This document shows positions 34,894 to 36,183 of a stretch of 64,000 nt of DNA, in pieces. Source of the stretch: Terriglobia bacterium (GTDB lineage: Bacteria > Acidobacteriota > Terriglobia > JAIQFV01); NCBI GenBank assembly GCA_020073085.1, contig JAIQFV010000004.1, positions 62,001-126,000 on the forward strand, in the 5' to 3' direction. The notes beneath the pieces are model-generated. The model was not told the DNA's origin. It did not search any database and saw nothing but the letters and a program-made list of their open reading frames with translations. Position numbers and translations under genes: made by a program. Within the stretch, counting starts at the first letter, position 1; every line of letters starts with the position of its first letter.

Positions 34894-35352
34894 ATGGATG
34901 ATTGGAGCACGGTCCGGGTCTTCGGTGCACGTCCCGAGGTCGGGGAGTGTGTGATTCGGCCCAGCGCCTACGGAGTCGTGGAGGATGTAGAAGGGCGGCT
35001 CGCGGTGGTCTGCACTACACAGGGAAACTTCCTTCCGGGAGGCGGCATCGAAGCGGGAGAAACTCCGGAAGAGACGATTAAACGAGAGACACTCGAGGAA
35101 TGCGGGCTGCTCGTCCGGCTCGGGGCCTGGACCCTCCGCGCGGTCCAGTTTGCCTACTCGGTGTCGGAAAGCACTCATTTCGAAAAGAGGAGCATCTTCA
35201 TCGAGGGCACGGTGGAGTACCCCTTCAAGAAGGCATTCGAGGCTGACCACGAACTCGTTTGGATTAAACCCGCCACGGCAGCCGGGATCCTTTCACACCC
35301 GAGCCACAGCTGGGCGGTCGAGCAGTGGCGGTTTGGCAATGCCCGCTGGTGA
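34894..35352 (+). CDS. NUDIX hydrolase
   Basis: A 152-residue NUDIX protein. The Nudix box GGGIEAGETPEETIKRETLE ending in ECG (about residues 49-71) matches GX5EX7REUXEEXGU, so the metal-binding glutamates are intact. Preceding strands (SAYGVVEDVEGRLAVVCTTQ) and following ones (WTLRAVQFAYSVSESTHFEK) complete the fold. Small single-domain members hydrolyse nucleoside diphosphates linked to another moiety or oxidised nucleotides; the substrate cannot be told. The 180 bases upstream contain an uninterrupted but startless frame ending in AFAVLCGPIGTFHGLDW, possibly a gene remnant. Confidence 0.92.
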   Translation: MDDWSTVRVFGARPEVGECVIRPSAYGVVEDVEGRLAVVCTTQGNFLPGGGIEAGETPEETIKRETLEECGLLVRLGAWTLRAVQFAYSVSESTHFEKRSIFIEGTVEYPFKKAFEADHELVWIKPATAAGILSHPSHSWAVEQWRFGNARW

Positions 35353-35436
35353 AGTGGACGGTTGTTCGCCCGGTGGGTTGGCCTTCAGTCAATAATGTGG
35401 GGATTTGAGGGGTGGTCCGTAGGAAAGGAGCTAGCC

Positions 35437-36183
35437 ATGAGTAATGCGATCCTGGTCGGGCGTGGCCGGCAGTTGATTGAGCTCTCGCGGCAAGCATGGG
35501 AACAAGATCTGGCGAAGGTGCCGGAGCACATGGCAGCGCGGCTGGCCTTTATGACGGAGGCACATCATCGGGTCCGTTCCTGGGTCGTCCGTGAGCTGCC
35601 GCGCCAGAATGCGCCGATCACCGTGGCGGCCATTGCGCGAGCGCTGGGCCTATCCGAGGCACACGTGACGAACCTCCTGGACGATCTGGAGCAGCACCTG
35701 TTTTTTCTGGTGCGCGACACCCAGGGATCGGTGAACTGGGCCTTTCCGGTGACGTTAACTCCCACCCCGCACGCTTTGAGGTTCAGTACAGGAGAACAGT
35801 GCTTTGCCGCTTGAGCGGAGGACGCGATGGCGGCGTCCTTCGTCGAAGGGCGATTGAGAAATGAGCCGGTGACAGTGACCATTCAAACGGCGTGTGGGCA
35901 TTGTGACCAACCCCTGCGGATAACCGTGAATAGCGAGATGCAGTCAACGGTCGAGGAGCCGACCGCCAAGCCGCTGATCTTCGAGCCGCAAGTGGATTGG
36001 GCCACCTTCCGGGAGCCGAACATCGTTCATGCCTATTGAAGGCGGTCAATTTTCTTCTGGTCAGAAGAACACGCAAGGGCCTATCGGGAGCAAATGCAGC
36101 AGGTGGACGGAACTTACCTGACGCTGGAGCAGAGTGCATATTCAACCCCGATTGCACAGGGAGCACTGTTTGGGTTCCGGTGA
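35437..36183 (+). CDS. MerB-family organomercurial lyase-like selenoprotein with two in-frame TGA codons
   Basis: ATG 35437 follows AGGAAAGGAG. Read through TGA at 35812 and 36037, the frame gives 248 residues ending at TGA 36181. A winged-helix N-terminus (ITVAAIARALGLSEAHVTNL) and VTLTPTPHALRF align with MerB. The first TGA (residue 126) lies in QCFAA-U-AEDAM, matching AWCALDT of R831b MerB (Cys96, with Asp99 conserved as Asp129). The second (residue 201) lies in VHAY-U-RRSIFFWS, matching SFCCHVHFF (Cys159, with exactly four residues before FF). MerB uses these residues to protonolyse carbon-mercury bonds. Elsewhere the frame has no shift or stop, and TGA is an ordinary stop in neighbouring genes. 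Hairpins follow each TGA. I infer Sec126 and Sec201. The alternative is a doubly nonsense-mutated pseudogene; truncation at 35814 would remove all catalytic residues. No merA or merR is nearby. Confidence 0.75.
35834..35852 (+). promoter_or_regulatory. Candidate bacterial SECIS element after the first TGA
   Basis: CGTCCTTC (35834-35841) pairs with GAAGGGCG (35845-35852; one G-U) around the triloop GTC, whose first base is 27 bases past the TGA at 35812-35814. Spacing and a G at the loop start fit bacterial SECIS rules (apical loop roughly 16-37 bases downstream). An alternative 11-pair stem directly after the TGA (35815-35825 with 35833-35843) has its loop only 11 bases away, which is too close. 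Confidence 0.5.
36052..36069 (+). promoter_or_regulatory. Candidate bacterial SECIS element after the second TGA
   Basis: TTCTTCT (36052-36058) pairs perfectly with AGAAGAA (36063-36069) around the tetraloop GGTC, which begins 19 bases after the TGA at 36037-36039. The E. coli fdhF SECIS has the loop AGGUCU about 17 bases after its UGA, where G and U of GGUC contact SelB. Position and loop sequence therefore agree closely with the known element, and the loop of the first candidate shares GUC. Confidence 0.65.

Follow-up and report, generated by a model that had tools for sequence, protein, structure and literature searches.

In the chemistry of the organomercurial lyase MerB, the organomercury cation binds to two cysteines, Cys96 and Cys159, and a proton from Asp99 frees the hydrocarbon. 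This reaction is a non-redox protonolysis; most known selenoenzymes are redox enzymes. The affinity between selenium and mercury plays a central part in the tolerance of organisms to methylmercury. Cys96, Cys159 and Asp99 are the catalytic residues described in a large survey of mer genes, in which no MerB was found in Acidobacteria (PMC8261052). The only MerB-type selenoprotein in reviews up to May 2026 is SaoL (NF040728) of the SAO system, a MerB-like organometallic lyase with a single selenocysteine (Sec) in a CU motif (PMC13188914, PMC9312934). Two Sec residues per chain are known from other selenoproteins, the UxxU metal-binding protein (NF041115) and MduS (PMC13188914). Furthermore, selones that mimic MerB cleave Hg-C bonds faster than their sulfur analogues (PMC11639659), which supports a gain from the use of selenium.

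Here we analyse a gene from a 64,000-nucleotide stretch of acidobacterial DNA (the window). Judging from sequence, we put at about 95% the probability that this gene encodes a genuine selenoprotein of the MerB family with two Sec residues. The frame runs from an ATG to a terminal TGA and contains neither TAA nor TAG; direct reading confirms the initial annotation in that the only internal stops are the TGA codons starting at 35812 and 36037 (Table 1). The gene is flanked by a NUDIX gene and an alpha/beta hydrolase gene, with a DUF3303 gene next, and much of this neighbourhood is common to the window and a relative from the same genus. Standard annotation would end genes of this kind at their first TGA, and the absence of acidobacterial MerBs from the published survey is as expected if they do end there.

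Table 1. Coordinates of the MerB-family gene and its signals in the window, and of associated genes in other genomes.
Feature	Position	Strand	Basis
Ribosome-binding site AAAGGAG	35424..35430	+	Sequence; ATG 6 nt downstream
Predicted double-selenocysteine MerB-family gene, 248 residues, with Sec for TGA at codons 126 and 201	35437..36183	+	Read-through translation, PF03243 match, homologues
Predicted Sec codon 1 (TGA, codon 126), equivalent to catalytic Cys96 of R831b MerB	35812..35814	+	Alignment with homologues
SECIS-type hairpin 1: 7 conserved pairs, 5-nt loop CGUCG (35841-35845), loop start 26 nt past UGA	35834..35852	+	Covariation, folding
Predicted Sec codon 2 (TGA, codon 201), equivalent to catalytic Cys159 of R831b MerB	36037..36039	+	Alignment with homologues
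SECIS-type hairpin 2: UUCUUCU-GGUC-AGAAGAA, GGUC loop 19 nt past UGA	36052..36069	+	Covariation, folding
Terminal stop TGA of the MerB-family gene	36181-36183	+	Read-through translation
Two-TGA merB with selA-selD-selB cluster	L071:3743-10245 (G332:C19)	One strand	Gene order
Small protein gene beside two-TGA merB (G332)	L071:9187-9486		60% identical to the G077 gene
Small protein gene beside two-TGA merB (G077)	L074:7681-7917	-	60% identical to the G332 gene

The read-through product matches the Pfam MerB family (PF03243) with 57.1 bits and an E-value of 2.4e-15, where the curated cut-off is 27, and the family is also matched by all members of the two-TGA class that were scanned (7/7). The NCBI equivalog cut-offs for MerB are missed by a wide margin (48.7 against 193 bits and 42.4 against 200), as is the cut-off for SaoL (43.6 against 140 bits for NF040728), which makes the protein a distinct branch of the MerB family. 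Identity to the profile of cysteine-containing MerBs is about 20%. In a phmmer comparison with MerB2 (PDB 5c17) both TGA positions fall on cysteines. A profile-profile comparison with an alignment led by R831b MerB, whose sequence as used for numbering agreed with PDB 1s6l, gave a probability of 97.6% (E=2.9e-12) and paired the first TGA with Cys96, D129 with Asp99, C153 with Cys117 and the second TGA with Cys159. The claim of the initial annotation that the TGAs sit on the two catalytic cysteines, with Asp99 kept, is borne out by both comparisons.

Cysteine occupies both TGA columns in the cysteine-form MerBs, and the equivalents of Asp99 and Cys117 are invariant in the two-TGA members. Cys96 and Cys159 as such are missing from the product, and the Sec predicted at each place is chemically alike; since both catalytic cysteines are replaced, we regard the protein as a variant of the family and not as a canonical MerB. 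In the two-TGA class the first Sec would lie in an AUAED motif and the second in YUxxxxFFWSEEH. An AlphaFold model, for which two sequences served as input, was of low quality (pLDDT 41.5) and was set aside.

The arrangement recurs in other genomes. Eight full or nearly full sequences (L001, L023, L026, L050-L053 and L059) keep both TGAs, always 75 codons apart. The same-genus relative (L023/L025) is 86% identical to the window protein, five others (L026, L050, L051, L052 and L053) are 48-57% identical, L059 is more distant, and in L068, a fragment, the second TGA is present. These sequences span seven families of Acidobacteriota, and the eight form one clade with 100/100 support. Our search within Acidobacteriota found no cysteine-form member of this class, and no relatives were found in viral contigs and plasmids. 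Between the window gene and L023, dN/dS is 0.16 up to the first TGA, again 0.16 from there to the second, and 0.06 in the remainder, so the stretches beyond both stops are evidently translated and are under selection.

Downstream of both TGAs lies a conserved hairpin of the bacterial SECIS type. The published model has a loop of 3-9 nt, a stem of 4-16 bp, a distance of 16-37 nt from the UGA and a minimum free energy of -7.5 or lower, and also asks for a G within the first two loop positions (PMC13188914). Hairpin 1 agrees with this model (7-bp stem, loop CGUCG or CGUGC, 26 nt, -9.7). We also counted hairpin 2 as conforming (7-bp stem, loop GGUC, 19 nt), with a modest energy of -5.5 kcal/mol alone and -11.1 over a 45-nt stretch. 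Energy is a poor guide for hairpin 2, covariation and the freezing of synonymous codons being better tests. In the 45 nt of window RNA that follow the first TGA, the lowest-energy fold is a rival hairpin and not the conserved one, which becomes dominant only when the first 9 nt lie under the ribosome; codon-preserving shuffle tests of the energy of hairpin 2 in the two-TGA class were not significant. No Rfam families were found in the 64-kb window.

UUCUUCU-GGUC-(A/G)GAAGAA follows the second TGA in every two-TGA sequence, and a related class with a single TGA (described below) builds the same GGUC hairpin from different codons. Across 28 distinct sequences, 96.4% of the cells of hairpin 2 are paired and 4/7 pairs have changed on both sides (26 cells), a level reached by none of 500 shuffles; pairing falls to 51-65% when the partners are slid, and RNAalifold, unaided, predicts exactly this helix. 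For hairpin 1, 98% of the cells are paired and two pairs have changed on both sides. At amino acids common to the two-TGA class, the excess identity of synonymous codons is 0.43 in hairpin 1 (p=3e-4) and 0.93 in hairpin 2 (p=2e-4), compared with 0.01 over the rest of the gene, and the codons just beyond hairpin 2 are fully variable.

The host genome (5.79 Mb, 98.7% complete), whose nearest relative is a soil assembly from the same genus of Terriglobia (Acidobacteriota), encodes selA (563 bits), selB (391 bits), selD (376 bits) and a tRNA-Sec with the anticodon UCA. With this gene set, selenocysteine is decoded there. The host selD, a selenoprotein gene unrelated to merB, itself has a TGA at its AAGU active site (L018:1531-1533), followed by a strong hairpin with a three-base loop beginning with G. 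A strong tRNA-Sec was present in 104/199 genomes sampled from the phylum, and selB scored over the cut-off in 28 of the 29 merB-holding genomes checked; the sole genome without it (G471) carries a cysteine-form MerB.

How else might two in-frame stops be explained? Standard annotation would call the gene truncated, and a merB pseudogene with two nonsense mutations is the obvious alternative. However, the initial annotation had judged two random hits on both catalytic cysteines very unlikely, and we calculate a chance of about 3e-5 (2 in 248 x 247) that two random stops land on exactly these codons, in a pattern that recurs in eight genomes. The identical two stops, and no others, are kept down to about 50% identity, there is purifying selection beyond both, and the hairpins have frozen synonymous sites. 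A pseudogene is accordingly ruled out by the conservation of both TGAs across genomes, and we give it only a very small residual probability. Two assembly or sequencing artefacts are less credible still, to the point of being negligible: the assemblies are drafts made up of many contigs, yet both TGAs are found in independent genomes that differ in species, genus and family, which rules this explanation out as well.

It is also very improbable, though slightly less so than a pseudogene, that UGA is read here as another amino acid, be it through a TGA=Trp code or through leaky readthrough with a standard residue. L045, a relative from the side of the single-TGA class, carries TGG (Trp) at the second site, as a Trp code would allow. 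Against this, UGA terminates ordinary host genes, e.g. the NUDIX gene at 34894-35352, the homologues have cysteine and not tryptophan at both sites, and the genome encodes tRNA-Sec(UCA) and SelB, with SECIS hairpins after both UGAs. The Sec reading had been proposed in the initial annotation, and each computational check suggested there came out in its favour: MerB homologues carry cysteine at both positions, the genome has selA, selB, selD and tRNA-Sec, and the two TGAs recur in independent genomes and so are no read error. The covarying hairpins after each TGA back it further.

A second and commoner MerB-like class is found in Acidobacteriota, with cysteine at the first site (NCxWDA) and its one TGA at the Cys159 site (L027, L030-L038, L040, L041, L044, L048 and L060-L065). 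Its GGUC SECIS hairpin covaries and the tree separates it from the two-TGA clade; one genome, G077, carries a gene of each class. We found no published description of the single-TGA class in an incomplete coverage of the literature. Its relative L045 (from G301, a genome with selB) has TGG in place of TGA, in the sequence YTWETI; this is unexplained and may be a mutation, an error or a dead site. Two cysteine-form MerBs without Asp99, L042 (G471) and L047 (G453), have CLWC or CMWC instead of CxWD; the tree places them, moderately supported, within the single-TGA class. They are possibly reversals from Sec to cysteine.

In one genome (G332), downstream of the two-TGA merB and on its strand, come a small gene, then selA, then a selD with a fused carboxymuconolactone-decarboxylase domain, and then selB; a second selB is found elsewhere in that genome. 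This single case suggests that the two-TGA merB has kept company with Sec-insertion genes at least once, and the cluster is possibly a mobile Sec cassette. The small protein has a counterpart beside the two-TGA merB of G077. It contains RVQTG[VI]R[MI]EKR, has no Pfam match and looks like a ribbon-helix-helix DNA binder.

What might the protein do? Very probably it is the product of a two-Sec MerB-family gene, as SECIS elements, machinery and selection indicate, and its metal chemistry is in some way like that of MerB. That this chemistry is the cleavage of organometals, mainly of mercury, is moderately favoured by the conserved triad and by what MerB does. In such a mechanism Sec126, deprotonated at neutral pH, would attack the metal in methylmercury or another organometal cation, and Sec201 would become the second metal ligand. 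Asp129, the Asp99 of MerB, would protonate the leaving carbon and release the hydrocarbon, and the two selenolates would keep the metal ion between them. A pair of selenolates should make the attack faster and hold soft metals more tightly than thiolates do, which would suit a very efficient scavenger of trace organometals. Because no MerA partner is encoded, the metal product would leave by exchange with small thiols or selenols.

The function proposed in the initial annotation, a double selenocysteine organomercurial lyase, holds for the two-Sec MerB-family part. No mer gene was recognised beside the window gene in the neighbourhood examined, and merA scored over the cut-off in none of the nine genomes that hold the two-TGA class, the host included; we have for this reason replaced the organomercurial wording by "MerB-family, probable organometal lyase". 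Given the absent MerA, the protein may be a metal trap or may act on another organometal. The same absences would fit a double-Sec protein that cleaves no carbon-metal bond at all and instead binds or buffers soft metals (Hg, Cu, Cd, Ag) or carries out Sec-Sec redox chemistry. Ser99 variants of MerB can bind Cu(II) (PMC8261052), and a pair of Sec residues that share an active site could join as a diselenide. We consider such a role unlikely, if worth keeping in view, as the equivalent of the proton donor Asp99 is invariant in all members and needless for pure binding, and Cys117 is kept too. More tentatively than for the lyase itself, and at somewhat less than even odds, we propose a phylum-wide family that would use an all-selenium active site, made of two Sec and Asp, to cleave metal-carbon bonds, would work independently of MerA and in some lineages would travel with its own Sec-insertion genes.

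The MerB reaction is not a redox one and both catalytic thiols would have become selenols, hence the family would be a natural test of the benefit of selenium outside redox chemistry. It offers a natural and testable set of Cys/Cys, Cys/Sec and Sec/Sec proteins. Furthermore, searches that require an intact cysteine-form frame miss such genes, and the ability of soil bacteria to degrade organometals may be undercounted.

An incomplete search of the literature found no two-Sec MerB. The protein is like the MerB of R831b (PDB 1s6l/3f0o) in its PF03243 match, in its equivalents of Asp99 and Cys117 and in where, and in which order, the two catalytic residues stand, which are cysteines there and would be Sec here. 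A mer operon or a MerA partner is usual for MerB, although not universal, whereas the genes described here occur without a merA over the cut-off. With SaoL the protein shares its place among MerB-related selenoproteins, but SaoL has one Sec in a CU motif, and here there would be two and no CU motif. Finally, NF041115 and MduS also have two Sec residues per chain and belong to other families, while in the present protein the two are 75 residues apart, at the places of the catalytic cysteines of MerB.
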